A stretch of 64,000 nucleotides of DNA from Mycobacterium sp. 3519A. Lineage in GTDB: Bacteria; Actinomycetota; Actinomycetes; Mycobacteriales; Mycobacteriaceae. This document shows positions 36,223 to 60,488 of the stretch, piece by piece. The notes below the pieces were generated by a model. It worked only from the letters and a program-made list of their open reading frames with translations. It searched no databases and was not told where the DNA came from. Position 1 is the first letter of the stretch. The number at the start of each line of letters is the position of its first letter. The stretch spans positions 1,426,001 through 1,490,000 of the forward strand of contig NZ_OESG01000013.1 of assembly GCF_900240945.1 (NCBI RefSeq). The letters run 5' to 3'. Made by a program: the position numbers and the translations under genes.

Positions 36223-36241
36223 TACGGTTAGGGCTACAGTA
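36223..36241. promoter_or_regulatory. TACTGTAA-type operator, site 1
   Basis: TACGGTTA-GGG-CTACAGTA: 8-bp half sites with a 3-nt spacer, a degenerate copy of the consensus TACTGTAA-N3-TTACAGTA. It lies between divergent EchA (36195) and thioesterase (36277) starts. A TATCCT -10-like box follows 5 nt later on the plus strand, so binding would block RNA polymerase. Confidence 0.6.
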
Positions 36242-36276
36242 TTGCTATCCTGTACAAGTTAGCAAGGAAAGGGCGA

Positions 36277-36926
36277 ATGGCGGAAGACATCCCCGAGTAC
36301 GGCGAGCGCCCGCTGCCGCAAACGGTGGCCGCGGCGGGTGCCATGCGGCGTCTGGCCGGGCTGCTGCTGTCACTCGAACACGAGCATCCGGCCGTGGACG
36401 CCATGATTGCCCAGTTCGCCGACTGGGAGGAGCAGTTGACCGCCGCTGCGGCGCCCGATCCGATGCCGCGGATAGGGACGGTGGGTATGACAAGCGCGTG
36501 TATCTGGACCACGCGTTCGACATCGGGGCATACAATCCCTGCTTCCCCGAGTACACGTTCGACCATCTCGACGACGAAACCGCCTCCGGCAGCGTCACTT
36601 TCCCGCTCGTCTACGAGGGGCCGCCCGGTCTGGTCAACGGCGGCTTCCTTGCGGTGTTCTTCGACTGCATCACCCAGCATCAGAGCTGCGCGGCGCGGCG
36701 TACCGGCAAGACGCGGTCACTGTCCGTGACCTACCGCCGACCGACGCCCATCCTCACCGAACTGCGCTTCGAGATCGAGCGGTTGGCAGAAGAGAACGAA
36801 GTGACGTCGACGGCGCGCCTGCTGTTGGGCGACGAGGTGTTGTGCATCGGCGAATCCAAGACGGCGGCCAGTTCGCCGCAGAAGCTGACCGGCTTCCGGT
36901 TCGGTAGACGGCGGGTCAAGGCCTAG
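36277..36926 (+). pseudogene. PaaI-like thioesterase, interrupted by a 1-nt frameshift
   Basis: The reading frame from ATG 36277 (good AAGGAAAGG site) gives about 66 residues ending PDPMPRIG, then degenerates. The other frame, from about 36470, continues with DGGYDKRVYLDHAFDIGAYNP and a full hot-dog domain with VYEGPPGLVNGGFLAVFFD to the stop at 36924. One extra G in the GGG at 36475-36477 would join the two into about 217 residues. So one base has been lost, either in the genome (inactive gene) or by sequencing error. It is the first gene of an operon with the GntR regulator, whose start overlaps its stop. Confidence 0.75.
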
Positions 36927-37708
36927 TGGTGGTGCAGCGCATCCGCCAACCACGCGTCGCCGAGATCGTGGCGGCGCGGCTGCGTGAAGACATCTTGTCG
37001 GGCCGCCTCAAGGAAGGCGACGTGCTGCCCTCGCAGGAAAGCCTGTTCTCCGAGTTCGGGGTCAGCCCGCCCGCGCTGCGCGAGGCCATCCACATTCTCG
37101 AGACCGACGGGCTGATCTCGGTGCGCCGAGGTAACGTCGGAGGAGCGGTGGTGCATCAGCCCTCCGCTGAACGCACCGCGCACATGATCAGCATGGTGCT
37201 GCAATCGCGGTCGTCGACGCCTGCGGACGTCAGCGGCGCGCTGTTGCACCTCGAGCCGATCTGCGCAGGCATGTGCGCGGCGCGCGAGGACCGTGCAACG
37301 GAGGTGCTGCCCTACCTGGAAGCTGAAATCCGCCTGCAGCAAGAGCAATTCGACGACCTGACAACGTACGTGCCCAATGCCAGGCGATTCCATGAGGCGA
37401 TCGTCTCGCGGTGCGGCAACGAGCCCATGATTCTGCTGATCGGATCGTTGGAGTTGATCTGGTCCGCGCATGAGTCCTCGGTGTGGAGCGACGAAACCGA
37501 CCCGCTGAACCGCAAGACCATGCGCGCAGCGCTGCGCGACCATCAACGGTTGTTCGATGCCATCACCGATGGTGACTCGGCGCGCGCGGTCCGCCTCGCC
37601 CAGGGACATCTGGCTGCCGCCAGGCGCAACACGTTGGCTGTTGGAAACGACAGGACCATCGAGGCGAGATTGATTTCGAACGGCAACCATCAGGAGCTTG
37701 GCCGATGA
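36926..37708 (+). CDS. GntR/FadR-family regulator with FCD domain
   Basis: A 260-aa regulator. The winged helix-turn-helix covers about residues 8-75 (VAARLREDILSGRLKEGDVLPSQ, FSEFGVSPPALREAIHILETDGLI), followed by an FCD ligand domain with RRFHEAIV and DHQRLFDAI, the positions of metal-binding residues. Three GTG codons stand in a row at 36926; the first overlaps the thioesterase stop. It is one of two regulators that have a TACTGTAA-type site upstream of their own transcription unit, hence a candidate for controlling that set of promoters. Confidence 0.9.
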   Translation: MVVQRIRQPRVAEIVAARLREDILSGRLKEGDVLPSQESLFSEFGVSPPALREAIHILETDGLISVRRGNVGGAVVHQPSAERTAHMISMVLQSRSSTPADVSGALLHLEPICAGMCAAREDRATEVLPYLEAEIRLQQEQFDDLTTYVPNARRFHEAIVSRCGNEPMILLIGSLELIWSAHESSVWSDETDPLNRKTMRAALRDHQRLFDAITDGDSARAVRLAQGHLAAARRNTLAVGNDRTIEARLISNGNHQELGR

Positions 37709-38568: not shown

Positions 38569-38651
38569 GTGACGCCGGTCACCTACTGGCGGCAATACAA
38601 TATCTGCTACTTTTGTAACGTCGATAACGCCCGAACCCCGAGGTTGAGAAC

Positions 38652-39827: not shown

Positions 39828-39913
39828 TTAGGAATTCGCTGGCAAGAAACTGTATCGAAGCGCGACGGCGCGACGTTCTCTCCGTGGGGCCACTCGAAAC
39901 ACGGAGGTAACGA

Positions 39914-41128
39914 ATGCGTAGTCGCACCGCACGCGATGCGATTGCTCTTGGCAGTGCTGCGCTTGTTGCGCTGATGACTTCTGCTTGCAGTCAGGGTGCA
40001 GCGCAAGAGGCACCGCCCAATCTGAAAATCGTCGGCGTGACTCAGGTCGATGCGAACGGTGCGGCGGTCACGGCGAGTAGCGGCGATGCGCCCGCGGATC
40101 CGGCCGGGGACGGCAAGGCGGTGTGTCAGCCGGTCGCGATCGCGACGGCGGGCGCCTTCACCGGCGCGGACGCCGCGTTGGGAGCCAACATGAAAGACGG
40201 CGTGCAACTGGCCGTTGACCGGCACAACGCGGCCAATCCAGGCTGCCAGGTGCAGCTGAAGGTGTTCGACACCGAGGACGATCCGCAGAAGGCAACCGAA
40301 GTCGCGCCGCAGATCATCGACGACCCATCGATCGTCGGTCTGGTCGGCCCGCAATTCTCGGGCGAGACGAAAGCGACCGGGAGCATATTCGCCCAGGCGG
40401 GTCTGGTGGCTGTCACACCGGCGGCCACCAATGTCACGTTGTCACAGAACGGTTGGAAAACCTTCTTCAGAGGCCTGGCAAACGACGGCGTTCAGGGGCC
40501 TTCGATCGCGAACTATCTCAAGAACACGGTCGGTGCGAAGAAGGTGTGTGTGATCGACGACAGCACCGATTACGGACTCGGGATCGCGCAAGCGGTCACC
40601 CAGACGCTCGGGCCGATCGCAGCCTCGGACTGCAAGATCGAGGTGAAGAAGGGCGACAAGGACTTCTCGGCAGCGGTCACCCAGCTCAAGTCGGCTGCGC
40701 CCGACGCGGTCTTCTACGGCGGGTACTACACCGAAATGGCACAGCTCGTTCAGCAGGCACGCGACGGGGGCGTGAAGGCGACCTTCGCCGGGGGCGACGG
40801 CAGCAAGGATCAGCAGTTGGTGAAGCTGGCCGGGGAATCGTCCAAAGACGTAATACTGTCGTGTCCCTGTGCGCCTGCGAGTGGCCCGTTTGCCGATGAC
40901 TACACGCGCGAGTTCAGTCAGGAGCCAGGCACCTACAGCACCGAGGCCTACGATCTCGGCACGATTCTCGTCAAAGGCATTGACTCAGGCGCGATTACCC
41001 GCCAGGCCCTGCTGAACTACGTGCGCGACTACAACGGCCAGGGTGTCGCGCGCAGGTACCAGTGGACGCCAACCGGTGAGCTGACGTCGAGCCTGGTCTG
41101 GATCTACAAGGTGCAGTGGCGGCGCTAG
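39914..41128 (+). CDS. ABC-transporter solute-binding lipoprotein, branched-chain amino-acid type
   Basis: A 404-aa exported protein. A basic start, a hydrophobic stretch and the lipobox-like MTSAC (Cys near residue 25) predict lipidation. The mature part is a type-I periplasmic-binding fold of the LivJ/amide-binding family (VAIATAGAFTGADAALGANMKDGVQLAVDRHN, VGLVGPQFSGETKA, DDSTDYGLG). Such proteins bind amino acids, amides, aromatic or dicarboxylic acids. No permease or ATPase gene is nearby, so it may work with a transporter elsewhere or as a sensor. GGAGG precedes the ATG. It overlaps the convergent TetR gene by 4 bp. Confidence 0.9.
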   Translation: MRSRTARDAIALGSAALVALMTSACSQGAAQEAPPNLKIVGVTQVDANGAAVTASSGDAPADPAGDGKAVCQPVAIATAGAFTGADAALGANMKDGVQLAVDRHNAANPGCQVQLKVFDTEDDPQKATEVAPQIIDDPSIVGLVGPQFSGETKATGSIFAQAGLVAVTPAATNVTLSQNGWKTFFRGLANDGVQGPSIANYLKNTVGAKKVCVIDDSTDYGLGIAQAVTQTLGPIAASDCKIEVKKGDKDFSAAVTQLKSAAPDAVFYGGYYTEMAQLVQQARDGGVKATFAGGDGSKDQQLVKLAGESSKDVILSCPCAPASGPFADDYTREFSQEPGTYSTEAYDLGTILVKGIDSGAITRQALLNYVRDYNGQGVARRYQWTPTGELTSSLVWIYKVQWRR

Positions 41129-41883
41129 GAGCGGGAAGAAGCCTTGGCCCGCGTGCGTGCGGACTTAACGGGCTTCTTCCCGCCCGCGTCGATGAGCCGG
41201 CTGGCGTGATCGAGGATGCATTCGAGTCCGAACTCGAAGTTCTTGTCGTCGGCCGCGCCGATGTGGTGGCCCTTCGCGGTCACCTGGGCCAGCAGCGGCG
41301 TGCTGTCGGGGTCGATGGTCATCGTCTCCTCGAGATCGCTCGGCCCCTCCGCGTCGGCGGCGCGGTTCTTGTCCCGGAGTCGCTGCAGCACCACTGATCC
41401 GCGCACATGCACGGACACCGCGGAATACGTGTCGAACGCATCCTCGGCCGACAGGCCCGCCTCCACCAGGCTGGCGATCGCCTTCTCGACTTCTTGCACA
41501 CCGACTTTGGCGGCGCGCGGCGAAAGCGCCGACCGGATGAGGATCAGATCGCACAGAATCGGGTTGCCCTGGAACGTCTTTCGCATGGTGCGCGCATGAT
41601 TGCGCAGCGTCTCGCGCCAGTCTTTGGCCTCGACGTAGGGGGTGGCGAAAACGTACTGCCGAAGCGCACGGTCGGTCATCGCGTTGAGCAGATCGTCCTT
41701 CTTGCGGAAGTACCAGTAGATGCTCGTGACGCCGACGCCCAGGTGCTTGCCGAGCAGTGGCATGCTCAAGTTGTCGATGCCGACCTGTTCGGCGAGGTCG
41801 AAGGCGCCCTTGATGATGTCGTCGGGATTGATGGACCCGCGCTCGCGTCGCTGACGCTTCTCAGCGGTTGCTTGCTTGGCCAC
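41125..41883 (-). CDS. TetR-family regulator with basic C-terminal tail
   Basis: A 252-aa regulator. Its helix-turn-helix is at about residues 22-68 (DDIIKGAFDLAEQVGIDNLSMPLLGKHLGVG, TSIYWYFRKKDDLL) and a TetR class-C-like ligand domain follows. The last 15 residues are strongly basic (KKPVKSARTRAKASSRS), unusual for TetR. GGAGGTG precedes the GTG start. The 199-bp gap to the divergent SDR gene contains a TACTGTAA-type site, so this protein is the other main candidate for the regulator of that site set. Confidence 0.9.
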   Translation of the reverse strand: MAKQATAEKRQRRERGSINPDDIIKGAFDLAEQVGIDNLSMPLLGKHLGVGVTSIYWYFRKKDDLLNAMTDRALRQYVFATPYVEAKDWRETLRNHARTMRKTFQGNPILCDLILIRSALSPRAAKVGVQEVEKAIASLVEAGLSAEDAFDTYSAVSVHVRGSVVLQRLRDKNRAADAEGPSDLEETMTIDPDSTPLLAQVTAKGHHIGAADDKNFEFGLECILDHASRLIDAGGKKPVKSARTRAKASSRS

Positions 41884-42031
41884 GAGGGCACCTCCATCGA
41901 GTGCTTGTCACTGAAATCTACCGGCGGTCACGCTCTGAACTGCGTCTTTGCCTGCGTGTCGCCGCTCGGCCGTTATCGACAACCTTACCGGCAGCCATCT
42001 TGTCGATGGCACCTTCACATTCTCCCGCTTC

Positions 42032-42050
42032 TACTGTAAGACCTATAGTA
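42032..42050. promoter_or_regulatory. TACTGTAA-type operator, site 2
   Basis: TACTGTAA-GAC-CTATAGTA: the left half site is perfect, the right half keeps 6 of 8 consensus bases. It lies 33 bp before the SDR start (42083) and 149 bp before the divergent TetR start (41883). Confidence 0.6.
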
Positions 42051-42082
42051 AGCATTTCTAGCGATTCGGTTCAGAGGTAGGG

Positions 42083-42880: not shown

Positions 42881-42890
42881 GGAGTGAAAT

Positions 42891-43895: not shown

Positions 43896-43912
43896 CCGGT
43901 CGCTGAAAGGGT

Positions 43913-43931
43913 TACCGTTAGGTGTACAGTA
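43913..43931. promoter_or_regulatory. TACTGTAA-type operator, site 3
   Basis: TACCGTTA-GGT-GTACAGTA. It starts 18 bp after the aldolase stop and lies 43 bp before the GTG of the EchA gene that opens a six-gene operon. Nearly the same bases (TACxGTTA-GG, CAGTA) occur in site 1. Confidence 0.6.
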
Positions 43932-43974: not shown

Positions 43975-44793
43975 GTGAGCCTGCCCGACCCGGTCTTGTA
44001 CGAGGTTCGCGACGCAGGCGTCGCGGTGCTCACGCTCAATCGGCCCGAGCGGACGAACGGCTGGGGCGGTGGCCTCGCTGCGATGTTCTACGAGCGTCTC
44101 GACGACGCCGAAGCCGACCCGGCGGTGCGCGCCATCGTGGTGACAGGCAGCGGTCGCGCCTTTTGCGCGGGTGCGGACATGGGCAGTCTCAACTCGATCG
44201 GCACTGCGACGGTGGAATCCGCCGGCGAAACCGATGTCAGCAAGTTGGTTGGTTCGCGGCACCCGCACCACCTGATGACCATGCGCAAACCCGTCGTCGC
44301 CGCGATCAACGGTGCCTGTGCAGGGATGGGCATGACGATCGCATTGGCATGCGATGTCCGGTTCGCAGCACAGGGGGCCAAGTTCACGACGTCGTTCGCG
44401 CGGCGCGGGTTGATCGCCGAGTACGGCATCTCGTGGATCCTGCCGCGGGTCATCGGCCGGGGCGCCGCACTGGACCTGCTGCTGAGCGGACGGGTCTTCC
44501 TCGCCGACGAGGCGGCGCAACTCGGCGTGGTCAACGAGGTGGTGCTGCCGGATGAGCTGGTGCCGCGCGCGATCGCGTACGCCGAGGACATCGCCGCGAA
44601 CTGTGCGCCCAGTTCGCTAGCGGTGATCAAGCAACAGGTGTACGCAGACACCATGCGCGATGTCTTCGAGGCCAGCGACCGCGCCGAAAAGCTGATGCAC
44701 TCCTCGATGCTTCGGCCTGACTTCATCGAGGGCATCACCAGCTTCTTCGAGAAGCGTCAGCCCAACTTCCCGCCGTTGAAGGAGACGACATGA
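43975..44793 (+). CDS. Enoyl-CoA hydratase (crotonase fold)
   Basis: A 272-aa crotonase: TGSGRAFCAGADMGS and INGACAGMGMTIAL make the oxyanion hole, and RRGLIAEYGISWILPR carries the catalytic Glu at the usual position, so true hydratase or isomerase activity is likely. GGAGGAGG precedes the GTG start. First gene of the EchA-amidohydrolase-FadD-amidohydrolase-FadE-FadE operon; ATGA overlap with the next gene. Confidence 0.9.
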   Translation: MSLPDPVLYEVRDAGVAVLTLNRPERTNGWGGGLAAMFYERLDDAEADPAVRAIVVTGSGRAFCAGADMGSLNSIGTATVESAGETDVSKLVGSRHPHHLMTMRKPVVAAINGACAGMGMTIALACDVRFAAQGAKFTTSFARRGLIAEYGISWILPRVIGRGAALDLLLSGRVFLADEAAQLGVVNEVVLPDELVPRAIAYAEDIAANCAPSSLAVIKQQVYADTMRDVFEASDRAEKLMHSSMLRPDFIEGITSFFEKRQPNFPPLKETT

Positions 44794-45992
44794 CGCTCGG
44801 CTATAAGGCGATCGACGTCGACAACCACTACTACGAGACGCTGGATTCCTGTACCCGGCATCTACCCAAGGAGTTCAAACGTCGCGGCGTGCAGATGGTG
44901 CAGGACGGCAAGCGCACCCTGGCGGTGATGGGCGAGAAGGTCAATCACTTCATCCCGAACCCGACATTCGACCCGATCATTGAACCCGGCTGCCTCGACT
45001 TGTTGTTCCGCGGCGAGATTCCCGAAGGCGTGGACCCGGCGTCGCTGATGAAGGTCGACCGGTTGGCCGATCACCCCGAGTACCAGAACCGCGATGCCCG
45101 CGTGAAGATCCTCGACAAGCAGAATCTCGAAACCGTGTTCATGCTGCCGACATTCGCGTGCGGTGTCGAGGAAGCGCTCAAACACGACGTCGACGCGACG
45201 ACGGCCACGGTGCACGCGTTCAACCTCTGGCTCGACGAGGACTGGGGTTTCGACCGTCCGGACCATCGGATCATCTCCGCGCCGATCATCTCGCTCGCCG
45301 ATCCCGACAAGGCCGTCGAGGAGGTCGAGTTCGTGCTCGGGCGGGGCGCCAGGATGGTGCTCGTGCGGCCGGCCCCGGTGCCCGGCGTGGTCAAGCCGCG
45401 TTCGTTGGGCGACCCGCTGCACGATCCGGTGTGGGCGCGGCTGGCCGAGGCGGGCGTTCCGGTCGGATTCCACCTGTCCGACAGTGGATATCTGGCGATC
45501 GCGGCGCTGTGGGGCGGCAAGTCGACCTTCGAAGGGTTCGGTAAGAAGGATCCGCTCGACCAGGTGCTGCTCGACGACCGCGCCATCCACGACACGATGG
45601 CCGCGATGATCGTCCATCAGGTGTTCACCAGGCACCCGAAGCTGAAGGTCGCCAGCATCGAGAACGGGTCCTACTTCGTCTACCGGTTGATCAAGCGGCT
45701 GAAGAAGGCCGCCAACACCGCGCCGTACCACTTCAAAGAGGACCCGGTCGAGCAGCTGCGCAACAATGTCTGGATCGCCCCGTATTACGAGGACGACGTG
45801 AAGTTGTTGGCCGACACCATCGGCGTCGACAAGATCCTGTTCGGTTCGGACTGGCCGCACGGTGAAGGGTTGGCCGACCCGATGTCCTTCACCGCGGACA
45901 TCCCGCAGTTCCCGGAGTTCAGCGCGGAAGACACCCGGAAGGTGATGCGCGACAACGCCCTTGAGCTTCTCGGCGTCAAGGTCTCGGCCTAG
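44790..45992 (+). CDS. Amidohydrolase-2 family metal-dependent hydrolase/decarboxylase (ACMSD-like)
   Basis: A 400-aa TIM-barrel protein. The N-terminal VDNHYYE (the ACMSD family often has DxHxH), central GFHLSDSG, HQVFTRHPKLKVASIENG and the late FGSDWPHGEG are family marks. Only one His is visible in the first motif, so the metal site differs from classic amidohydrolases. In acyl-CoA operons such proteins may open rings or remove CO2 from a CoA-bound intermediate; the reaction is not known. Coupled to both neighbours (4-nt overlap upstream, 7 nt downstream). Confidence 0.87.
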   Translation: MTLGYKAIDVDNHYYETLDSCTRHLPKEFKRRGVQMVQDGKRTLAVMGEKVNHFIPNPTFDPIIEPGCLDLLFRGEIPEGVDPASLMKVDRLADHPEYQNRDARVKILDKQNLETVFMLPTFACGVEEALKHDVDATTATVHAFNLWLDEDWGFDRPDHRIISAPIISLADPDKAVEEVEFVLGRGARMVLVRPAPVPGVVKPRSLGDPLHDPVWARLAEAGVPVGFHLSDSGYLAIAALWGGKSTFEGFGKKDPLDQVLLDDRAIHDTMAAMIVHQVFTRHPKLKVASIENGSYFVYRLIKRLKKAANTAPYHFKEDPVEQLRNNVWIAPYYEDDVKLLADTIGVDKILFGSDWPHGEGLADPMSFTADIPQFPEFSAEDTRKVMRDNALELLGVKVSA

Positions 45993-45999
45993 TCTGCCC

Positions 46000-47607
46000 A
46001 TGAGTGAGTGGACCATTGGCGCGGTACTGGACGCCATCGCGGAGACCGTTCCCGACCGGCTGATGACGGTCTGCGGCCAGCGGCGCAGCACGTTCGGCGA
46101 GTCGGCGGAGCGCACCCGTCGGCTGGCGAACTTCCTTGCCGCGCAGGGGTTTGGCGCCCACCGCGAGCGCTCGGAACTCGCGAACTGGGAATGCGGGCAG
46201 GACCGGGTTGCGCTCATCATGCACAACGATCTCTATCCCGACATGGTGATCGGCTGTCTGAAGGCCCGCACCGTCCCTGCCAACGTCAACTACAACTACA
46301 CGCCGCGCGAGGTCGCCGAACTGCTGGACTATCTGCGGCCGCGCGCCGTCATCTATCACCGTTCGCTGGGCCCGAAGTTCGCCGACGTGCTGTCACCCGA
46401 GTCCGCGGAGCTGTTGATATCGGTCGACGACGGAAGTGGCGTCGCCGAACTGGCGGGTGCGACGACGCTGGAAGATGTGTTGGCTAACGGCGATTCGAAC
46501 CAGGACATCACACCGTCGCCCGACGACGTGCTGATGGTGTGCACGGGTGGCACCACCGGACGACCCAAAGGCGTCATGTGGCGGCAGTGCGACAGCTACG
46601 TGGTGTCCATGAACGGCGCCGACCACGAATCCGTTGGCGAGATACACGACAAGGTGCGCCGCGGCGGGCAGCCGTGGTTCGCCGTTTCGCCGCTGATGCA
46701 CGCGGCGGGTATGTGGACGGCGTTCGCGGCATTGCTGAACGGGCTACCGGTGGTGCTGTTTGACCAGACGAAATTCGACCCGCCCGCTGTGCTCGCGACC
46801 GCGCAGCGCGAGAAGGTCGCGATGATGACGATGGTCGGCGACGCGTATGCGGGGCCGCTGGTGGAGGAGCTGAGGCGGGGCTGCTACAACCTGTCGTCGA
46901 TGTTCGCCATCGGCACTGGGGGAGCGGCGACGAACCCGAAATACCAACGGGCGCTGCTGGAATTGTTGCCGCAGATCACCCTGATCAACGGCTACGGATC
47001 ATCGGAGACGGGAAACGTGGGCTTCGGCCGCAGTCAGCGGGGTGCGGAGAAGGACACCTTCGAGCTGCGCGACGGTGCGGTGGTGGTGTCCGAGGACTAC
47101 AGCCGATTCCTGCAGCCCGGTGACGCGGAAATCGGCTATGTCGCGCGTGCGGGCCGCATCCCGCTCGGCTATTTCGACGACCAGGCCGCCACTGAGAAGA
47201 CCTTCCCGATCGTCGAAGGACAGCGCGTCGTGATCTCGGGGGACCGCGGAGCGCTGACGACCGACGGCACGATGCGCCTGTTCGGCCGCGATTCGTTGAT
47301 CGTCAACACCGGCGGGGAGAAGGTCTTCGTCGAGGAGGTCGAAGAGGTGCTGCGCGCACATCCCGCTGTGGCGGACGCGTTGGTGGTTGGCAGGCCCAGC
47401 GAACGGTGGGGCCAGGAAGTGGTCGCGGTGGTGGCGCTGCGCGACGCGGCAGACCACGCGCAGCTGCACGACCATTGCACCGCGCACCTCGCCCGGTTCA
47501 AGACCCCCAAGGAGTTCATCATCGTCGACCAGGTCCGTCGGCTCGGCAACGGCAAAGCCGACTACCGGTGGGCGAAAAGCACTGCGGCACAGAAAGCCAT
47601 GGCATGA
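46000..47607 (+). CDS. Acyl-CoA synthetase, FadD19/FadD17-like
   Basis: A 535-aa AMP-forming enzyme: CTGGTTGRPKGVMWRQ, NGYGSSETGNVGFGR, VISGDRGALTTDGT and the C-terminal GNGKADYRWAK. The TGGTTG form of the phosphate loop followed by MWR is typical of the FadD19 group that activates branched sterol side chains. It is paralogous to the synthetase at 56558-58216. ATG 46000 is preferred to an earlier frame opening inside the amidohydrolase. Confidence 0.92.
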   Translation: MSEWTIGAVLDAIAETVPDRLMTVCGQRRSTFGESAERTRRLANFLAAQGFGAHRERSELANWECGQDRVALIMHNDLYPDMVIGCLKARTVPANVNYNYTPREVAELLDYLRPRAVIYHRSLGPKFADVLSPESAELLISVDDGSGVAELAGATTLEDVLANGDSNQDITPSPDDVLMVCTGGTTGRPKGVMWRQCDSYVVSMNGADHESVGEIHDKVRRGGQPWFAVSPLMHAAGMWTAFAALLNGLPVVLFDQTKFDPPAVLATAQREKVAMMTMVGDAYAGPLVEELRRGCYNLSSMFAIGTGGAATNPKYQRALLELLPQITLINGYGSSETGNVGFGRSQRGAEKDTFELRDGAVVVSEDYSRFLQPGDAEIGYVARAGRIPLGYFDDQAATEKTFPIVEGQRVVISGDRGALTTDGTMRLFGRDSLIVNTGGEKVFVEEVEEVLRAHPAVADALVVGRPSERWGQEVVAVVALRDAADHAQLHDHCTAHLARFKTPKEFIIVDQVRRLGNGKADYRWAKSTAAQKAMA

Positions 47608-49477: not shown

Positions 49478-49485
49478 GGGGCGCA

Positions 49486-50679
49486 ATGGATTTCTCACGG
49501 GTTCAGCTGTCCGCCGACGACCAGGCCTTCCTCGAAGAGGCGCGCGATTTCCTGCGCACGCACGTGACCGAAGACGTCATCCGGCGCGACCGCGAGACGG
49601 GCGACAACTTCGACGAGGGCGTGCACCTCACACTCGGCGCCGCTGGGTATCTGGTCAAAGAGTGGAAGCCGGAGTCCGAGGGCGGCTTCAACCGTGTCCG
49701 CCGCCGCATCTGGGAACTGGAGAAACGCCGCGCGCACGTGCCATGGGTGACGTCAGGCACCACCGCGATGATCGCGAGATCGGTGGAGAAGTTCGGCTCA
49801 CCGGAACTGAAGGCCGAGGTGATGCCCGGCGTGTTCAGCGGACACATCCGGCTGTGCCTCGGCTACACCGAGCCCGAAGGCGGTTCGGACGTCGCGACAT
49901 GCAAGACCCGCGCGGTGCGCGACGGCGACAGCTGGATTATCAATGGTGCCAAGATGTTCACCACCGGCGCGCACAACTGCCAGTACGTGTTCCTGATCAC
50001 CAACACCGACCCCGACGCGCCAAAGCACAAGAGCCTGACCATGTTTCTGGTCCCGCTCGACTCGCCAGGCGTCGAGATCCAGGGCATCCGGACGGTGGAC
50101 GGCGACCGCACCAACATCGTCTACTACAGCGACGTCCGCGTCGACGACAAGTACCGGTTGGGTGAGGTCAACGACGGTTGGACGGTGGTGCGTGAACCGC
50201 TCAATGTCGAACACGGTGCGGTCGATGCCGCTCCGGACGGGCTCCAAGACGTGTCGATCATGATGCATCAGGCCGGTTTCATGGCGGCGGCAGTCGACAA
50301 GGCCGCGGCCAAGGTCGTCGAACCCGATCCCAACGGCCGCCGCCTGATCGACGACGCATCGGTGGCATATCGACTGGGCCGCAGCGTGGCCCGGATGGAA
50401 GCGTCGCTGTCGGCGTCGTCCATCTTCGGCCGGGTGGCGCTGGCGCAGACGATGCGCGACATCTCGCCGGACCTGATGGACATTCTGGGGACCGCGGCGT
50501 CGCTGCCCGTCGGCACCGATGGTGCCGCGGACGACGGGGCGGCGGAATACGTCTACCGATTCGCACCGCTGGTTGGCATCTACGGCGGCACCCTCGAGGT
50601 GTTCCGGAACATGATCGCGCAGTATGTGCTGGGGCTGGGCAAGCCGGCCTACGCACCGCCCGCGCAGAAGGTTTCGTAG
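49486..50679 (+). CDS. Acyl-CoA dehydrogenase (large FadE partner)
   Basis: A 397-aa dehydrogenase with LCLGYTEPEGGSDVATCKTRA and IINGAKMFTTGAHN at the flavin site. The end reads VGIYGGTLEVFRNMIAQ, with Gly where the common Glu base stands, so catalysis must use another residue or need the small partner. With that partner it probably forms an alpha2beta2 enzyme acting on a bulky acyl-CoA. Last gene of the operon; palindrome A copy 3 follows at once. Confidence 0.91.
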   Translation: MDFSRVQLSADDQAFLEEARDFLRTHVTEDVIRRDRETGDNFDEGVHLTLGAAGYLVKEWKPESEGGFNRVRRRIWELEKRRAHVPWVTSGTTAMIARSVEKFGSPELKAEVMPGVFSGHIRLCLGYTEPEGGSDVATCKTRAVRDGDSWIINGAKMFTTGAHNCQYVFLITNTDPDAPKHKSLTMFLVPLDSPGVEIQGIRTVDGDRTNIVYYSDVRVDDKYRLGEVNDGWTVVREPLNVEHGAVDAAPDGLQDVSIMMHQAGFMAAAVDKAAAKVVEPDPNGRRLIDDASVAYRLGRSVARMEASLSASSIFGRVALAQTMRDISPDLMDILGTAASLPVGTDGAADDGAAEYVYRFAPLVGIYGGTLEVFRNMIAQYVLGLGKPAYAPPAQKVS

Positions 50680-50744: not shown

Positions 50745-51890
50745 TCAAGTCGTCAGGATAGTCGCCGCGGCGGTGCCGGGCGCGCCGTACAACTGGGTGA
50801 ATCCGACCTTCGGGTCACCGGGCACCTGGCGATCGCCCGCCTCGCCGCGCAGTTGCCGGACGATCTCGTGGATCTGCCGCAGCCCCGACGCGCCGATGGG
50901 TTCACCGTTGGCGATCAGCCCGCCGTCGGTGTTGACGGGCATCGCGCCGTGGATCTCGGTGGCGCCGTCGGCAAGCAGCTTCTCCTGTTCGCCGTCGGCG
51001 CAGAAGCCGCACTCGGCCATGTGGATGATCTCGGCGCCCGCATCGGTGTCCTGCAGTTGGATGACGTCGACGTCTTCGGGTGCGACGCCGGCCTTTTCAA
51101 ACGCGGCCTTGGCCGCGTACACCGTCGGCGACACGTCTTCGTCGACGGGTGCGAACGTCGTGTTCACCTCGTAGGCACCGTATCGGCGGGTGCGGACCTC
51201 GACGGCTCGCAGGTATACCGGCTTCGCGGTGTAACGGCACGCGATGTCGGCCCGGCACATGACCACCGCGGCGGCGCCTTCGTCGGGCGCGCAGAACATG
51301 TACTGCGTGAGCGGATAGTTCAGCATCGTCGAGTTGAGGATGTCGTCCTCGGCGATGGGCTTGCGCCGGAATGCGTTCGGATTGAGCGCGCCGTTGCGGA
51401 AGTTCTTCGCAGCGACCTTGGCGAGGGTCTGCTGCGAGATGCCGTGATCGTTGAGATATCGGTTGGCCTTCATGCCGAAGAACTGTGTGGTGAGGTACTG
51501 GCCGTTCTCGGCGTACCAGCGGGGCATGCCGACCAGGGCCGGATCTTCGGTGAACGCGCCGCGGGGGTGCTTGTCGAGGCCGACGGCGATGCCGATGTCG
51601 TAGTCGCCCAACCGGATTCCGTCGGCGCACGCCTTGGCGGCGCTGGCCGCGGTGGCGCATGCGTTGAACACATTGGTGAAGGGGATGCCGGTCAACCCGA
51701 CCATGCCGACGATCGCATCAGGGTTGGCGACCGTCCAACTGCCGCCGGTGGCGAACTGGATGTCGCTCCACTGCACACCGGCATCCGCGACGGCGGCGAA
51801 GATTGCGTCGACCCCCATCTGCATCGCCGACTTGCCCCCGAAGCGACCGAACGGGTGCAGGCCGACGCCGATGATGGCCACGTCGTTCAT
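50745..51890 (-). CDS. SCP-x/lipid-transfer-type thiolase
   Basis: A 381-aa thiolase-fold protein of the group that includes sterol carrier protein x thiolases and the Ltp aldolases. The nucleophile Cys78 (FNACATAAS) is present, but the usual GHPxGxSG reads GEPIGASGLRQ, with Glu for the catalytic His. It could thus be a slow thiolase, a retro-aldolase or a thioesterase-like enzyme. No DUF35 partner gene is adjacent. ATG follows GGAAGGA; a near-perfect TACTGTAA-type site lies 33 bp upstream. Confidence 0.88.
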   Translation of the reverse strand: MNDVAIIGVGLHPFGRFGGKSAMQMGVDAIFAAVADAGVQWSDIQFATGGSWTVANPDAIVGMVGLTGIPFTNVFNACATAASAAKACADGIRLGDYDIGIAVGLDKHPRGAFTEDPALVGMPRWYAENGQYLTTQFFGMKANRYLNDHGISQQTLAKVAAKNFRNGALNPNAFRRKPIAEDDILNSTMLNYPLTQYMFCAPDEGAAAVVMCRADIACRYTAKPVYLRAVEVRTRRYGAYEVNTTFAPVDEDVSPTVYAAKAAFEKAGVAPEDVDVIQLQDTDAGAEIIHMAECGFCADGEQEKLLADGATEIHGAMPVNTDGGLIANGEPIGASGLRQIHEIVRQLRGEAGDRQVPGDPKVGFTQLYGAPGTAAATILTT

Positions 51891-51922: not shown

Positions 51923-51941
51923 AACTGTAACCATTACAGTA
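51923..51941. promoter_or_regulatory. TACTGTAA-type operator, site 4
   Basis: AACTGTAA-CCA-TTACAGTA: 7 of 8 half-site pairs are perfect. It lies 33 bp before the thiolase start on the minus strand and directly against the end of the NYN-domain gene. On the minus strand the site contains TACTGT and TACAGT, both TANNNT-like. Confidence 0.7.
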
Positions 51942-52412: not shown

Positions 52413-53639
52413 CTAGGCAATGGCGCCGGAGTTTTTGAGCTCCTCGATCCGGTCCCAGTCCATGCCCAGATCCATCAACACCAACTCGGTGTGCTCCGAC
52501 GCCTGGGGAGCGCGCGTCGTCTCGAGCGGTTCGTGGTTGAACTGCACAGGCCCGCGAACGACCTTGAACGGTTTCCCGCCGTCACCCGCTTCGACTTCGA
52601 CGATCATGTCGTTGGCGATCGCCTGCTCGTCGGTGGCGAGGTCGAGGAAGCTCTGGAACGGCGCCCACTGCCCCTTCATCGTCTTCAGGTGCTGACGCCA
52701 GTACTCGAACGGTTTGCTTCGGATCTGCTCGGCAATGAGTTCGACTGCAGCAGCGGCGTTCTCGATCAACGGAAGCACGTCGGAGAACCGCGGATCGTCG
52801 GCGAGTTCTCCAAGCCCGAGATGTTCGAACGCATCACGGATATAGCCGGTCGGGCTGACGATGCACAGGTTGATCGTGCCGCCGTCCGACGTCAGATAGT
52901 TGGCCATGAACGGGTTCACCGTCGGACCCGTCGCGCCCGGCATCACCGAGCGCATCGTCTCGCCGGTCTCCATGCCCTGGGTCATGCTGGCGCCGCCGGC
53001 CCACCAGGCAGTGCTCAACAGCGAAACGTCCAGTTCGACCGCCTCGCCGGTGCGGTCCCGGTGAAACAGCGCCGCTGAGATCCCGCCCGCGATGAACATG
53101 CCGCCGATCGAGTCGCCGAACGCTGGAATGCCTTGTGACAGCGCGCCTCCCAGCTCCTCGGGCGTCAACGCGTGGCCGACGCCGCTACGTGTCCAGAACG
53201 CGGTGCCGTCGAACCCTCCGGTGTCGCGTTCGGGCCCCTTGTCGCCGTATGCGCTGCCGCGGGCGTAGATGATGTTCGGATTCACCGCGCGGATGTGTTC
53301 GACGTCGAACTTGTTCTTCTGCCGCTGGGCGGGCATGTAGTTGGTCAGGAACACATCGGCGGTCTTGGCGATTTCGTAGAGCACCTCCTGACCGCCTGGC
53401 GTCGAGACGTCGATCCCGACGCTGCGCTTACCGCGATTGGGGTGCTCGATCAGCGGATGCCGATTCGGATCCAGTTGGAAGCCGCCCATGTTGATGAACC
53501 CGCGCTGGGTGTCGCCGCGCACCGGATGCTCCACTTTGATGACGTCTGCGCCCCAGTCGGCCAGGATCGCACCCGCCGCAGGGACGAACGTGAACTGCGC
53601 GACTTCGAGGACCCGCACGCCCTCCATCACCTTGATCAA
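52413..53639 (-). CDS. Family III CoA-transferase (CaiB/BaiF)
   Basis: A 408-aa enzyme that moves CoA between carboxylic acids. The N-terminal block VRVLEVAQFTFVPAAGAILADWGADVIKVE and the RGKRSVGIDV segment are typical, and Asp in IPAFGDSIGGMF is the expected acyl-anhydride-forming residue. It starts with TTG at 53639 behind GGGAGAGG. It is divergent from the aldehyde dehydrogenase gene, with an almost perfect TACTGTAA-type site between them. Confidence 0.92.
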   Translation of the reverse strand: MIKVMEGVRVLEVAQFTFVPAAGAILADWGADVIKVEHPVRGDTQRGFINMGGFQLDPNRHPLIEHPNRGKRSVGIDVSTPGGQEVLYEIAKTADVFLTNYMPAQRQKNKFDVEHIRAVNPNIIYARGSAYGDKGPERDTGGFDGTAFWTRSGVGHALTPEELGGALSQGIPAFGDSIGGMFIAGGISAALFHRDRTGEAVELDVSLLSTAWWAGGASMTQGMETGETMRSVMPGATGPTVNPFMANYLTSDGGTINLCIVSPTGYIRDAFEHLGLGELADDPRFSDVLPLIENAAAAVELIAEQIRSKPFEYWRQHLKTMKGQWAPFQSFLDLATDEQAIANDMIVEVEAGDGGKPFKVVRGPVQFNHEPLETTRAPQASEHTELVLMDLGMDWDRIEELKNSGAIA

Positions 53640-53670
53640 GTGAAGCCTCTCCCTGGTCGTTGAAGTAACC

Positions 53671-53689
53671 TACTGTAATGGTTACAGTT
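53671..53689. promoter_or_regulatory. TACTGTAA-type operator, site 5
   Basis: TACTGTAA-TGG-TTACAGTT, one base from perfect symmetry. It is centred in the 87-bp gap between the divergent CoA-transferase (31 bp away) and aldehyde dehydrogenase (37 bp away) starts, so it could control both. Confidence 0.7.
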
Positions 53690-53726
53690 GATCGTCCCGC
53701 GGGCTCCGATTGTACGAGGTGACAGG

Positions 53727-55274
53727 GTGAGCACCACCGAGAATCGAGTAGAACGGACCGAGACCAGCGTCGAGGTGGGCGCCCGTGCCGCGACGCGCGC
53801 GGAGTCGAGAATGCTGATCGACGGCGAACTGGTGCCCGCCGCCGCAGGCGAAGAGTTCGACAATCTCAGCCCCGCGACAGGACGGCTGCTCGGGCGCACC
53901 AGCGCCGCTGGACCGCACGATATGAACCGCGCCGTTGCCGCGGCGCGACGTGCCTTCGACGACACCGACTGGTCGACCAACCGCGCACTGCGTAAGCGCT
54001 GTCTGCAGCAACTGCAGAGCGCCATCGAAGCGGACAGGGAGGTTCTTCGGGAGGAACTGATCGCCGAGGTCGGCTGTCCGGTCATGACCACCCAATCCGC
54101 GCAACTGGATTGGCCGTTGGCCGAGGCTTTGCGCTATCCCGGCCGGCTGATCGACGAGTTCGAATGGGAGCGCAGGCTCGACGGCGGTGGGCTGTTCGGC
54201 GAGCGGAACGTGCGCACCGTCGTCAAGGAACCGGTGGGTGTCGTCGCCGCGATCACGCCGTCGAATTTCCCGATCGAGGTCATCCTCAACAAACTCGGCC
54301 CCGCGCTGGCCGCGGGGAATACGGTTGTGCTCAAGCCGGACCCGAACACACCGTGGAACGCCACCCGCCTCGGGCGTCTCATCGCCGAGTGCACCGATGT
54401 CCCGGCAGGCGTCGTCAACGTCGTGCCGACACCGTCGAACGAGGTGGCTGCGGCACTCGGCACCGACCCTCGTGTCGACATGGTCTCGTTCACCGGTTCG
54501 ACTGCGGTCGGCAAATCACTGATGCGCCAGGGCGCCGACACGATGAAGCGGATGTTCCTCGAACTCGGCGGGAAGTCGGTGGCGATCGTCCTCGACGACG
54601 CGAACCCGGCGGCGATCCTTGGCGCGGCGATCGGCGTGTGCGTCCACGCCGGGCAAGCATGTGCGGCGACCACCAGGATGCTCGTGCACCGGTCGCTGTA
54701 TGACGAGGCCGTCGCGACCATCACCGCCGCATACGCGGCCGTGCCCGTCGGCGACCCGCTGCAACCGGAAACACTTGTGGGACCGGTGATCAGCGCAGCC
54801 CAGCAGGACCGTGTGCTCACCGCGATCGACAACGCGCGCCGCGACGGCGCCGAGATAGCCGTCGGCGGTCGAGAGGTCACCGACCTGCCGGCACACCTGC
54901 GAGACGGTCACTTCGTGGCGCCGACCGTGATCGTCGGTGTGCCCAACGGCGCGGCGATCGCACAGGAAGAGGTCTTCGGCCCGGTGCTCATCGTGATGCC
55001 GTTCGACGACGACGAGGAAGCGGTGCGCATCGCCAACGACAGCCCGTACGGCCTTGCAGGCGCTGTGATGTCGCGGTCAACAGAGCGTGGGATGAGCATC
55101 GCGCGCCGTGTCCGCACCGGGTCGTTCGGCGTCAACGGCGGCATGTTCTACGGCGCTGACGCGCCATTCGGCGGCTACAAGAACAGCGGTGTCGGTCGGC
55201 AGTGCGGAATCGAGGGTTTCCAGCAGTATCTCGAGACCAAGACCATCGGTTGCCGAACGCCTCGAAAGGGTTAG
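53727..55274 (+). CDS. NAD(P)-dependent aldehyde dehydrogenase
   Basis: A 515-aa enzyme oxidising an aldehyde to the acid. ITPSNFPIEVILNKLGPAL, FTGSTAVGK, the general-base Glu279 (FLELGGKS) and the nucleophile Cys312 (HAGQACAATTRM) are present. GTG 53727 is chosen over an earlier frame because the family N-terminus and an AGGTGACAGG ribosome site fit it. Next to a P450, it would turn a terminal alcohol/aldehyde of an oxidised substrate into an acid for CoA activation. Its last 4 bp overlap the P450 gene. Confidence 0.94.
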   Translation: MSTTENRVERTETSVEVGARAATRAESRMLIDGELVPAAAGEEFDNLSPATGRLLGRTSAAGPHDMNRAVAAARRAFDDTDWSTNRALRKRCLQQLQSAIEADREVLREELIAEVGCPVMTTQSAQLDWPLAEALRYPGRLIDEFEWERRLDGGGLFGERNVRTVVKEPVGVVAAITPSNFPIEVILNKLGPALAAGNTVVLKPDPNTPWNATRLGRLIAECTDVPAGVVNVVPTPSNEVAAALGTDPRVDMVSFTGSTAVGKSLMRQGADTMKRMFLELGGKSVAIVLDDANPAAILGAAIGVCVHAGQACAATTRMLVHRSLYDEAVATITAAYAAVPVGDPLQPETLVGPVISAAQQDRVLTAIDNARRDGAEIAVGGREVTDLPAHLRDGHFVAPTVIVGVPNGAAIAQEEVFGPVLIVMPFDDDEEAVRIANDSPYGLAGAVMSRSTERGMSIARRVRTGSFGVNGGMFYGADAPFGGYKNSGVGRQCGIEGFQQYLETKTIGCRTPRKG

Positions 55275-56467
55275 GCCGCAACGTCGAACGTCACCGGGAT
55301 CGCCGTCGGCGACCGGAACGGATGCCCCCATATCTGCGGGTCGTCATCGCCTGCCAAGCGGATGTCCGACAGTCGGGTCAGCAAGCCCTCCAACGCCACC
55401 CTGGTCTCCATCCGAGCCAGGTGCAGGCCCATGCAGGTGTGCTCACCGGCTGCAAAGGAGATGTGCGGCAGCCGCTTTCGGAAGATGTCGAAATCCTCCG
55501 ACCGCTCCCATCGGCGTTCGTCCCGGTTCGCTGATCCGATCGCGACGTCGATCACCGCGCCTTTGGGTATGCGCACCCCCTCGACTTCGGTTTCCTCCGC
55601 GGCGTACCGCTGTACCACCGTCAACGGCGTCTCGTAGCGCAGCCCCTCTTCGATTGCGGGCGCGATCAACCCGTGGTCGGCCTGCACGGCGCGGAACTGC
55701 TCGGGATGGGTGAGCAACAAGAACAGCAGGTTGCCCGACGAGCGATAGGTGGTCTCGAGGCCCGCGGGCAGCAGCAGCCGCAAGAACGAGTAGATGGCCT
55801 CGTCGCTGAGCTTCTCGCCGTCGATCTCGGCGGTGACCAGATCACCGATGATGTCGTCCGTCGGTTTGGAGCGGCGCAACTCGATCTGTTGGAGGAAGTA
55901 GTCTTTCAGCGCCGCGGACGCCTCGAAGGCACGCTTGTACTTGACGGTGTAGCTGATCAATTCGACCGCGCGTTTACGGAACCAGGGCAGGTCTTCTTCC
56001 GGCAGGCCGAGCAGCTTCGAGATCACCCTGGTGGGGAACTCCATGGTGAAGTCGCGGACCAGGTCCGCCGCACCGGCCTCGATGAACTCGTCGATCAGTT
56101 GATGGACGACGGGCCGGACGATCTCGGGTTCCCAGCGCAGCAGTGACTTCGACTTGAAGGCCGCGGACACCAGATTGCGGTGCTGCCAATGCGTTTTGCC
56201 TTCCATCGCGAGGATGGTGGGGCCGATGAAAAGGCCGATGGTGCTGTCGTAGATGTGGGAGTTGAACACCTTGCCGTCGCGGAAGACGCGGTTGACGGCA
56301 TCGAAGGACATCGCCGCGTACAGCTGCTCGGGCATCATGGACTCCGGCGTCTTGGACCAGTCCATCACGCTGCCCTTGAACACGCCGGGTCCGTGCCGCC
56401 TCTCGGCGAACAGCGGGTACGGGTCACGAAGCAGATCGAACGTCTCGTCGTGCACCGGGCTTTCCAC
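55271..56467 (-). CDS. Cytochrome P450 monooxygenase
   Basis: A 398-aa soluble bacterial P450. The heme-binding Cys345 is in SFAAGEHTCMGLHLAR, ExxR is EGLRYET, and the I-helix oxygen motif reads LLPAGLETTYRS (Glu in place of the common Asp). It would need a ferredoxin and reductase encoded elsewhere. GTG follows GGGAG. The perfect TACTGTAA-type site lies 46 bp upstream. The CYP family cannot be assigned by eye; the position suggests the first oxidation of the unknown substrate. Confidence 0.95.
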   Translation of the reverse strand: MESPVHDETFDLLRDPYPLFAERRHGPGVFKGSVMDWSKTPESMMPEQLYAAMSFDAVNRVFRDGKVFNSHIYDSTIGLFIGPTILAMEGKTHWQHRNLVSAAFKSKSLLRWEPEIVRPVVHQLIDEFIEAGAADLVRDFTMEFPTRVISKLLGLPEEDLPWFRKRAVELISYTVKYKRAFEASAALKDYFLQQIELRRSKPTDDIIGDLVTAEIDGEKLSDEAIYSFLRLLLPAGLETTYRSSGNLLFLLLTHPEQFRAVQADHGLIAPAIEEGLRYETPLTVVQRYAAEETEVEGVRIPKGAVIDVAIGSANRDERRWERSEDFDIFRKRLPHISFAAGEHTCMGLHLARMETRVALEGLLTRLSDIRLAGDDDPQIWGHPFRSPTAIPVTFDVAA

Positions 56468-56512
56468 CGCTGATCTCCCGCGTCATCGAACGGACAGGCG
56501 TCCAGCTGATAA

Positions 56513-56531
56513 TACTGTAAAGCTTACAGTA
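56513..56531. promoter_or_regulatory. TACTGTAA-type operator, site 6 (perfect)
   Basis: TACTGTAA-AGC-TTACAGTA, fully symmetric, in the 90 bp between the P450 start and the end of the co-directional acyl-CoA synthetase gene. It defines the consensus for the set. Confidence 0.75.
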
Positions 56532-56557
56532 TTGCGATCAGAAGCGGGAGCGAGCGG

Positions 56558-58216: not shown

Positions 58217-58224
58217 CGTGCCTC

Positions 58225-58839: not shown

Positions 58840-59447
58840 GTCCACGCCTCGATGAGGTCGTCGGTGGTGGTGAGGGTGGCGAGCAGCGACAGCGTGTTGT
58901 CGATGATCGATGTCGCGTACTCGGTGGGGATTCCCGCGACCGCATCGCGTGGTACGACGACGCGGTAAGCGAGGTTCACCGCGTCCATGACGAGATTCGT
59001 GATCGCGATGTTGACCGAGACGCCGACGGCGACGATCGTCGAGACGCCCAGATTGCGCAGCGTCGCGTCCAGGTCCGTGCCGCCCATCGGACCGATGCCG
59101 TGGGACCGCCGCAACACCACATCGGTTGGCGCAGGGCCGAGTTCGGGCAACAGGGCGGCACCGGGACTGCCCGGCGCGATGTCGACACCGCTTCCGATGG
59201 TGAAGATCTTCGCGTTGTGATTGGCGCCCAGTCCGTCGGGCCGCCGCCGCACCAGGCAGTGCACGATCTTCACGCCTGCGTCGCGGGCGGCGGGCAACAT
59301 GCGTGCGATGTTGGGCACGGCTTCCCGACGCGCTTCCTGCGCAAGCACCGCAAGCCCGGCGTCGGGGCCGACTACCGCGCCTTGACATTCCTGCGTGACG
59401 ATCGCGGTGTGTGCCGGCGCCGCGATCTCGGCGAGATTCTTCGTCAT
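58836..59447 (-). CDS. Isochorismatase-like protein with altered catalytic residues
   Basis: A 203-aa protein with the isochorismatase/nicotinamidase fold. Compared with the usual Asp-Lys-Cys triad, the first motif reads AIVTQECQGAVVG (Glu or Gln near the Asp position), the Lys region reads VVLRRSHGIG (Arg), and the Cys region reads VGVSVNIAITNLVMDA (Ala where Cys is expected). Only the fold-forming MDA and PRDAVAG motifs are standard. It may be a binding protein or a changed enzyme. ATGA overlaps on both sides place it firmly in the Rieske operon. Confidence 0.83.
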   Translation of the reverse strand: MTKNLAEIAAPAHTAIVTQECQGAVVGPDAGLAVLAQEARREAVPNIARMLPAARDAGVKIVHCLVRRRPDGLGANHNAKIFTIGSGVDIAPGSPGAALLPELGPAPTDVVLRRSHGIGPMGGTDLDATLRNLGVSTIVAVGVSVNIAITNLVMDAVNLAYRVVVPRDAVAGIPTEYATSIIDNTLSLLATLTTTDDLIEAWT

Positions 59448-60442
59448 GCGGTGGCGGGAACTTCGTAGAACTGTGTGGCCCACTTGCGCATGGCCATATA
59501 CGGTTTCGCGTCGACTATGGACAGGGCGGGGTGCTCGACGTACTCCTGATGACGCCAGATGTTGAGGTCATCCCATACGGTGCCCATGAACTGGCGCTCG
59601 ACCTGTGCGCGCACCGGATCGGGCGGCACCTCCGACGTGTCGCCGGGCAGCCGTGGCCACCAGATCGAATAGAACATGTCGGAGAACCCGTCTTCGACGG
59701 GCGTGCAGGCGAAGATCAGACGATGGTTCGACGAGCCCTCGAAAGCGCTGATCGCGAAGCCGAGGCCGGAGAAGTGACTGTGGATGTAGAGCGCCATCTT
59801 GCCCGGATCGTCGCTGCGCACGTCGGGCCAGCCGGTCAGGAATCGCCATTCCTCGTCGACCGCTTCCCACTCGAGACACACCGGCGTCACCGTCGCGCCG
59901 TGCACGTAGTGGAAATGCGCGCTGTCGGGGCCGTTTTCGGCGACGATCTGTGGGTGCACCGGTTCGCGCTCCGCGCGGCTGGAAAACTCCGGATACGGGC
60001 GGTAGTACGCGTCGGGGTCCGTCGGGAACTGCGGGAACTTCGCGAACAGATCGGGCATGTCCCACCGCGGTTCGGCCCCGTCCGGGTGATGCCAGACGAA
60101 CACACAGCCGTACTGCTCGACGAGCGGATACACCCGAAGTCGCAGCGCCTTGTTCGGCCGGTCCGGCTGATAGGGGATGTACCGGTTGGTGCCGTCGGGT
60201 CCCCACCGCCAGCCGTGGAAGGGGCACTCCACGCAGTCACCGACCACCTTGCCGCCATGGCCGATGTGCGCGCCGAGGTGCCGGCAATGACCGGATAGCA
60301 CGTGCAGTTCGCCGGACTCGTCGCGATAGGCGACCAGGTCCGCACCGAAGTACCGAAGCGGCCGCACGTCGCCGACACCGAACTCCGCCGACCAGCCGAC
60401 CATGAACCAGCCGGTTACCTTCCAGGTAAAGGGGACTTTCAC
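59444..60442 (-). CDS. Rieske non-heme iron oxygenase, KshA-like
   Basis: A 332-aa oxygenase component. Rieske ligands: Cys53 and His55 in CRHLGAHIGHGG, Cys73 and His76 in CPFHGW. The mononuclear iron motif is ENGPDSAHFHYVHG (Asn, Asp and two His). The layout and length resemble 3-ketosteroid 9-alpha-hydroxylase KshA and other mycobacterial monooxygenases for alicyclic substrates. The reductase is not in the window. GTG 60442 is chosen because the conserved WKVTGWFMVGW start follows; earlier codons form no homologous sequence. First gene of its operon. Confidence 0.92.
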   Translation of the reverse strand: MKVPFTWKVTGWFMVGWSAEFGVGDVRPLRYFGADLVAYRDESGELHVLSGHCRHLGAHIGHGGKVVGDCVECPFHGWRWGPDGTNRYIPYQPDRPNKALRLRVYPLVEQYGCVFVWHHPDGAEPRWDMPDLFAKFPQFPTDPDAYYRPYPEFSSRAEREPVHPQIVAENGPDSAHFHYVHGATVTPVCLEWEAVDEEWRFLTGWPDVRSDDPGKMALYIHSHFSGLGFAISAFEGSSNHRLIFACTPVEDGFSDMFYSIWWPRLPGDTSEVPPDPVRAQVERQFMGTVWDDLNIWRHQEYVEHPALSIVDAKPYMAMRKWATQFYEVPATA

Positions 60443-60469
60443 GGGCGGCCGCCTCTGGGTTCCGTCGGA

Positions 60470-60488
60470 TACTAAATTGATTACAGTA
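60470..60488. promoter_or_regulatory. TACTGTAA-type operator, site 7
   Basis: TACTAAAT-TGA-TTACAGTA: the right half is perfect, the left half keeps TACT and one A. It lies 27 bp upstream of the Rieske gene start on the minus strand. Confidence 0.6.

Follow-up and report, generated by a model that had tools for sequence, protein, structure and literature searches.

The window analysed here is a stretch of 64,000 nucleotides (nt) of Mycobacterium sp. 3519A (C13:1426001-1490000), from a genome of 7,306,349 bases in 14 contigs. It holds a palindrome, TACTGTAA-N3-TTACAGTA, that recurs in the gaps of a gene cluster with a probable role in steroid-like catabolism, and a TetR-family protein, encoded at 41125-41883, that is the most likely reader of this palindrome. 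A preliminary description of the window had claimed seven such sites; every one was present, and they are given here with their mismatches to the full motif and their distances in base pairs (bp) to start codons.

36223..36241, operator site 1 (predicted): three mismatches; between the divergent EchA (36195) and open reading frame (ORF) 36277, 27 bp and 35 bp from their starts
42032..42050, operator site 2 (predicted): two mismatches; divergent gap of TetR and a short-chain dehydrogenase/reductase (SDR), the SDR begins 32 bp away and TetR 148 bp away
43913..43931, operator site 3 (predicted): three mismatches; 43 bp from the EchA of EchA-amidohydrolase-FadD-amidohydrolase-FadE-FadE
51923..51941, operator site 4 (predicted): one mismatch; 32 bp before an SCP-x-type thiolase
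53671..53689, operator site 5 (predicted): one mismatch; divergent gap, 31 bp from a coenzyme A (CoA)-transferase and 37 bp from GTG 53727 of a likely aldehyde dehydrogenase
56513..56531, operator site 6 (predicted): perfect palindrome; 45 bp before a cytochrome P450
60470..60488, operator site 7 (predicted): three mismatches; 27 bp before GTG 60442 of a KshA-like Rieske oxygenase

The site at 56513 had been called perfectly symmetric and those at 51923 and 53671 nearly so. All seven sites had also been described as intergenic. They are so with the start codons chosen, the nearest start being 27-45 bp away, and the ORFs from TTG 53688 and ATG 60682 overlap a site solely because ORFs were called from the farthest start. 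The genes of the cluster within the window are as follows, with function names drawn from family models and solved structures.

34604..36195, minus strand: two enoyl-CoA hydratases, first in a run whose later part holds three acyl-CoA ligases (29444-34503); the hydratase at 35404 has PaaG as its best model, under the cut-off of that model
36926..37708, plus strand: GntR regulator, best models NanR and PdhR, both below cut-off; in a run led by ORF 36277
41125..41883, minus strand: TetR-family regulator, the proposed repressor; PF00440 and PF02909
42083..43895, plus strand: SDR and DapA-like aldolase
43975..50679, plus strand: EchA, amidohydrolase, acyl-CoA ligase, amidohydrolase and a FadE pair
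50745..51890, minus strand: SCP-x-type thiolase
52413..53639, minus strand: CaiB-type CoA-transferase
53727..55274, plus strand: aldehyde dehydrogenase, Rv0768-like, below the cut-off of that family
55271..56467, minus strand: cytochrome P450
59444..60442, minus strand: Rieske oxygenase with a KshA_C domain; closest solved structures KshA

Distribution and conservation of the palindrome

The palindrome is confined largely to this one cluster. One hundred dinucleotide shuffles of the window gave no site, compared with seven in the real sequence. Over the whole genome, the full motif with at most three mismatches occurred at ten places, compared with five for a backwards control pattern. Eight of the ten lie in the cluster, one of these eight being 9.4 kilobases (kb) past the window, and the four places with at most two mismatches are all within the window. 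The core palindrome TACNGTA-N5-TACNGTA, with at most one mismatch, was used as a second genome-wide pattern, again with the backwards pattern as control. All seven of its places fell inside one 37-kb stretch (C13:1462223-1499460), while the control gave six places; site 60470 falls short of this threshold. A 3-mismatch place outside the cluster, C13:1337453 (L014:5954; TACTGTCACGATTACCGCA), is seemingly intergenic.

The preliminary description had suggested a genome scan with a weight matrix and had regarded a motif as frequent inside genes as upstream of them as evidence against a regulon. The match scan at three mismatches was run in place of the weight matrix, and its ten places look intergenic. 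The outcome does not contradict a regulon, and the comparison is a weak one, since two of the five control places lay in frames resembling coding sequence and three of the ten true places, where an open frame extends upstream of the start codon, were flagged by this rough test as well.

The cluster site past the window, an eighth one at C13:1499442 (L011:9442, window-equivalent 73442), is 12 bp upstream of the ATG of a luciferase-like F420-dependent oxidoreductase (LLM) gene, assigned by TIGR03617 (527 bits; cut-off 278). This gene is divergent from that of a carboxyltransferase.

L011:7802-10519, window-equivalent about 71800-74520: divergent carboxyltransferase and LLM genes, with a shared site

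To examine the conservation of the sites, regions of 60 kb surrounding the TetR ortholog were taken in 23 relatives, and the proteins of the window were mapped onto them. A site counted as conserved, unless stated otherwise, if it had at most three mismatches and was within 400 bp upstream of the ortholog. Conservation in orthologous gaps had been named beforehand as what a regulon should show, and the sites do recur in these gaps. The P450 site (56513) was found in 20/20 relatives, and in 20/20 at two mismatches as well. The site in the gap of the CaiB-type CoA-transferase (53671) was present in 13 of 15 relatives, that in the TetR gap (42032) in 16 of 23, with 4/21 on the SDR side, and the Rieske site (60470) in 11 of 19. 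The 53671 gap is judged from its CoA-transferase side, since the 4/18 obtained for the aldehyde dehydrogenase stems from a query reaching upstream of the likely start of that gene. For the SCP-x-type thiolase (51923), 9/20 relatives had a site within 400 bp, and 16 of 21 genomes, our own counted, had one within 700 bp. Conservation was 6/20 for site 36223 on the side of EchA (Ech2) and weak, at 4/22, for site 43913 (Ech4). Past the window, the LLM gene had its site in 15/17 relatives and the carboxyltransferase in 17/18. One hundred shuffled palindromes yielded no more than 0.016 matches per gap.

Genes internal to the operons of the window mostly lacked sites: Thl (0/19), AmH1 (0/22), FadD4 (0/21), AmH2 (0/22), FadE1 (0/22), FadE2 (0/22) and FadD5 (0/18). 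The exceptions were GntR (2/12), Ech3 (1/20) and Aldo (1/11), and GntR in G028, Ech3 in G014 and Aldo in G029 are the first gene after the site there. At five promoters, the share of the commonest base averaged 95-99% over the half-site positions, compared with 44-71% for spacer positions and 45-64% for flanking ones, for sites with at most three mismatches, own genome included; one of the P450 rows (G026, three mismatches) is a different P450. The half-site value is inflated by picking the closest match in each gap, but the shuffled controls show that such matches rarely arise by chance. The spacer of the LLM site is nearly invariant and the site is directly behind a TTGACC -35-like box; it is probably also constrained by promoter elements.

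The footprint extends well beyond these relatives. Sites with at most two mismatches were present in 109 of the 148 genomes sampled, at 370 places compared with 61 for the backwards control. Eighty named loci, taken with flanks of up to 10 kb, held 50 such sites, spread over 48 of the loci, where 60 shuffled palindromes averaged 0.017, and 45 of the 50 start with TACTATA as the TetR-gap site does. Among 20 genomes with listed sites of this quality, 62/75 sites were within 60 kb of TetR, and four of the other 13 are on G007 contigs of undecided placement. In ten genomes of other genera, the counts at three mismatches (1-15) were not clearly above the controls (1-7), and position near genes was used instead. 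The gene order there is reshuffled, the core has drifted to TACTGTA-N5-TACAGTA, and sites still precede EchA, P450 and Rieske genes, as well as TetR (at most 300 bp upstream) in 4/10 genomes. One genome of another genus, G260, carries a one-mismatch site at its LLM gene.

A site at C11:171658 is 53 bp upstream of the start of an unlinked P450 (L013:4403-5677), which is a probable member of the regulon. In G166 and G191, a P450 that is 59-62% identical to it is inside the cluster with a site about 140 bp upstream. Near the unlinked P450 are, among others, genes for two NAD_binding_2 dehydrogenases and a hydrolase, and one for a thiolase that carries a fused ChsH2-like domain.

Enzymes and likely substrate

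The enzymes of the cluster resemble the cholesterol gene set. The Rieske protein carries a KshA_C domain, and among solved structures it is matched best by 3-ketosteroid 9alpha-hydroxylases. The best matches of FadE1 and FadE2 are chains of 4x28 and of 6wy8/6wy9, which are steroid acyl-CoA dehydrogenase heterotetramers. Two of the ligases score above the cut-off of the PRK07798 subfamily. The match list of the P450 contains CYP125- and CYP142-type steroid enzymes, not at its top, and no functional name occurred among the 120 P450 homolog matches listed. The KshA-like Rieske protein, the FadE26/FadE27-like pair, the SCP-x thiolase and the P450 parallel enzymes of the KstR cholesterol regulon. 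Two amidohydrolases, the DapA-like aldolase and a homolog of fatty-acid desaturases have no known place in the cholesterol pathway. Because of the resemblance to the cholesterol gene set, the substrate may be a steroid-like or polycyclic isoprenoid compound.

The TetR-family protein as candidate reader

The preliminary description had offered both the TetR and the GntR protein as candidates for a single repressor of all sites. Their orthologs were surveyed in the 148 genomes with cut-offs of E at most 1e-88 for TetR and 1e-110 for GntR. Sites with at most two mismatches were present in 104 of 113 genomes with a TetR ortholog and in 5 of 35 without one. The mean number of these sites was 3.22 with TetR and 0.17 without, compared with 0.42 and 0.37 for the backwards control. 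The co-occurrence of TetR and motif has a Fisher p of 2e-18 if genomes are treated as independent and phylogeny is ignored. The distribution fits TetR and not GntR, and one regulon with one regulator is supported; that this regulator represses, after binding the sites and sensing a ligand, is what we infer.

Several properties of the protein agree with this assignment. It belongs to the TetR family by its PF00440 helix-turn-helix and PF02909 domains, and its sequence matches in PDB are to TetR classes A, B, D and G. Its recognition helix is nearly invariant, with VGVTSIYW.FR present in all 41 aligned homologs from 34 genomes, which are 36-100% identical; among named genomes, the nearest TetR, at 96% identity, is that of Mycobacterium sp. 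ACS1612. As in an autoregulated regulon, the palindrome at 42032 is in the promoter gap of TetR itself, where it overlaps a TATAGT -10-like box; the 16 relatives counted above also have a site near TetR. This is probably the autoregulatory site of TetR.

We propose, with a probability of roughly 0.8, that the palindrome (core TACTGTA-N5-TACAGTA) would be the operator of TetR 41125-41883, which would silence the steroid-like catabolic cluster until a pathway intermediate releases it. A TetR dimer would bind the promoters of the cluster, its own included, and keep about 37 kb of genes silent, and it would then be released by an intermediate derived from the substrate, either free or linked to CoA. 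The cluster encodes a P450/Rieske/acyl-CoA pathway resembling a paralogous version of sterol catabolism, and because of this resemblance the inducer would probably be an acid of steroid-like or other polycyclic isoprenoid type, or the CoA ester of such an acid. The regulon itself is sound and real in evolutionary terms, and repression by TetR relieved by an intermediate is the ordinary mode for the family. The new elements are the attribution of the sites to a single TetR, the additional targets, the recurrence of the sites outside the genus and the connection with a steroid-like pathway.

A number of observations weigh against this proposal. The co-occurrence is confounded by shared ancestry and by joint gain or loss of the cluster and TetR. 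Nine of the 113 TetR genomes (G010, G023, G026, G029, G057, G064, G070, G074 and G091) have no site at two mismatches or fewer. Few relatives keep the sites at 36223 and 43913 or, within 400 bp, the thiolase site, and the unlinked P450 has a site with at most three mismatches in only 6 of 12 genomes, which were hand-chosen and include three preselected as site carriers. The nearly invariant LLM spacer, unlike those of the other sites, may reflect constraint by promoter elements or by another protein. In other species two TetR proteins may share the operator, as described below. The predicted model of TetR is all-helical and poor, with a mean predicted local distance difference test (pLDDT) of 52.5 and a predicted template modelling score (pTM) of 0.42, which makes it unfit for fold comparison. 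Finally, the guess at a substrate rests on remote homology.

Two of the nine genomes, G026 and G029, were examined, and most or part of the cluster is absent from them. In G026 most of it is missing from the 60 kb covered. There TetR has a carboxyltransferase-like gene as its neighbour, and a 3-mismatch site lies between that gene and the divergent LLM gene.

A regulator encoded elsewhere, another TetR-family protein, might instead read the sites, with the local TetR merely sharing or competing for some of them; we consider this unlikely. TetR proteins are many in mycobacteria, according to PMC4482099. PMC6593523 describes 14 operons with a palindromic 'motif X' in another, phytosterol-fed strain and assigns the motif to the Rv0767c ortholog (G155_05115). 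Some relatives do have a second TetR paralog. It is 50-53% identical to that of the window, carries the same recognition helix and is beside the P450 in 5/23 mapped relatives (for example at G065:C1:1791613 and relatives). In a survey of paralogs at E of at most 1e-40, 32/148 genomes had more than one TetR match; the genome of the window, however, has a single one. The conserved site in the gap of TetR itself and the sites that remain near TetR in rearranged clusters also argue for the local protein. Moreover, the TetR beside the best Rv0768 match of the genome, which we take from gene order to be the Rv0767c ortholog, has a non-significant BLASTP E of 0.14 to the TetR of the window, and the 4.4-kb locus around that match has no site under five mismatches.

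That GntR 36926-37708 reads the palindrome is very improbable. GntR-type proteins can control acyl-CoA pathways, this GntR is in the run headed by site 36223, and the motif is present in 53/53 genomes with a GntR ortholog. These 53, however, always have TetR alongside, none of the 148 genomes having GntR without TetR. Of the 113 TetR genomes, 60 have no GntR ortholog and 51 of these 60 retain the motif, compared with the 5/35 genomes without TetR. We rejected GntR because of this distribution, and TetR is most likely the regulator. A site is within 400 bp of GntR in only 2/12 relatives, and a perfect site precedes the P450 in G014, G095, G016 and G073, whose clusters show no GntR match.

Least credible of all is a reading of the palindromes as promoter elements, as terminators or as AT-rich inverted repeats due to chance: the -10-like box inside site 42032 and the -35-like box ahead of the LLM site would fit such a view, but control palindromes shuffled from these letters hardly occur, the spacers at five promoters drift while both half-sites stay, and the motif is mostly absent where TetR is absent, the confounding by ancestry applying here too.

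Given TetR as its probable reader, the operator defines a catabolic regulon that is widespread in the genus. A known operator with a derepressible promoter offers a direct route to the inducer, and the steroid-like substrate suggested by the enzymes is relevant to steroid biotechnology and to the diet of environmental mycobacteria. Relatives with two paralogs offer a case in which the action of two sensors on a single operator could be tested. As a tentative extension, which we regard as possible rather than likely, there may be a further sterol-like catabolic system in mycobacteria and neighbouring genera, parallel to KstR/KstR2, whose operator is shared in some species by two TetR paralogs with nearly the same helix and diverged ligand domains, so that two intermediates would induce one pathway.

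Relation to known regulons and adjoining genes

The cluster is probably a derepressible steroid-like catabolic regulon that is distinct from the KstR regulon. The KstR operator motif, TnnAACnnGTTnnA, differs from the palindrome here, and the TetR of the window scored 20.6 bits on NF033703 (cut-off 280). It is likewise not MftR2 of the mycofactocin system (44.3 bits on NF038211; cut-off 285). KstR offers a parallel, being a TetR-type repressor whose numerous palindromic operators stand at P450, KshA, FadE, FadD, EchA and SCP-x genes (see also PMC6593523). The KstR2 regulon for the C/D rings also has TetR-type control of a CoA-based steroid pathway (PMC6593523). Its gene set differs and its operator is not known to match the palindrome here, and no KstR2 model was among the five families matched in the model search, no direct protein comparison having been made.

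Motif X shares with our palindrome a position upstream of P450, aldehyde dehydrogenase and SDR genes in phytosterol-induced operons, as described in PMC6593523. The regulon is apparently distinct from that of Rv0767c/motif X. The two TetR proteins were judged distinct because of the E of 0.14 and the lack of a site at the Rv0768 locus, a comparison of proteins and locus. PMC10312376 reports that GAC and GTC are over-represented in Rv0767c sites and TAA and TTA under-represented, which also speaks against identity with the palindrome here. KstR3 of Mycolicibacterium neoaurum (PMC10398937) is likewise a TetR/AcrR repressor of sterol side-chain genes. It is set apart by its description, which gives a small aldolase operon (atf1, chsH4, chsE6) and seven genes altered in the deletion. 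No matching system was seen in the available part of PMC9782250. The regulon had looked unreported beforehand, and this holds within the open-access literature searched and no further: no description was found there by operator letters or gene combination, subscription papers being mostly outside that coverage.

On one side, IclR and HMGL-like genes (61685-63415) adjoin the cluster, and neither is among the cluster matches of the relatives listed; IclR (61685), a candidate that was rejected, had among the matches listed only the one in the window's own cluster. On the other side, a long FadE (539 amino acids) and a second GntR (27102-29391) form a conserved pair beside the cluster, and in G260 a weak palindrome, CACTGTAATACTTACCATA, is upstream of the ortholog of this FadE.

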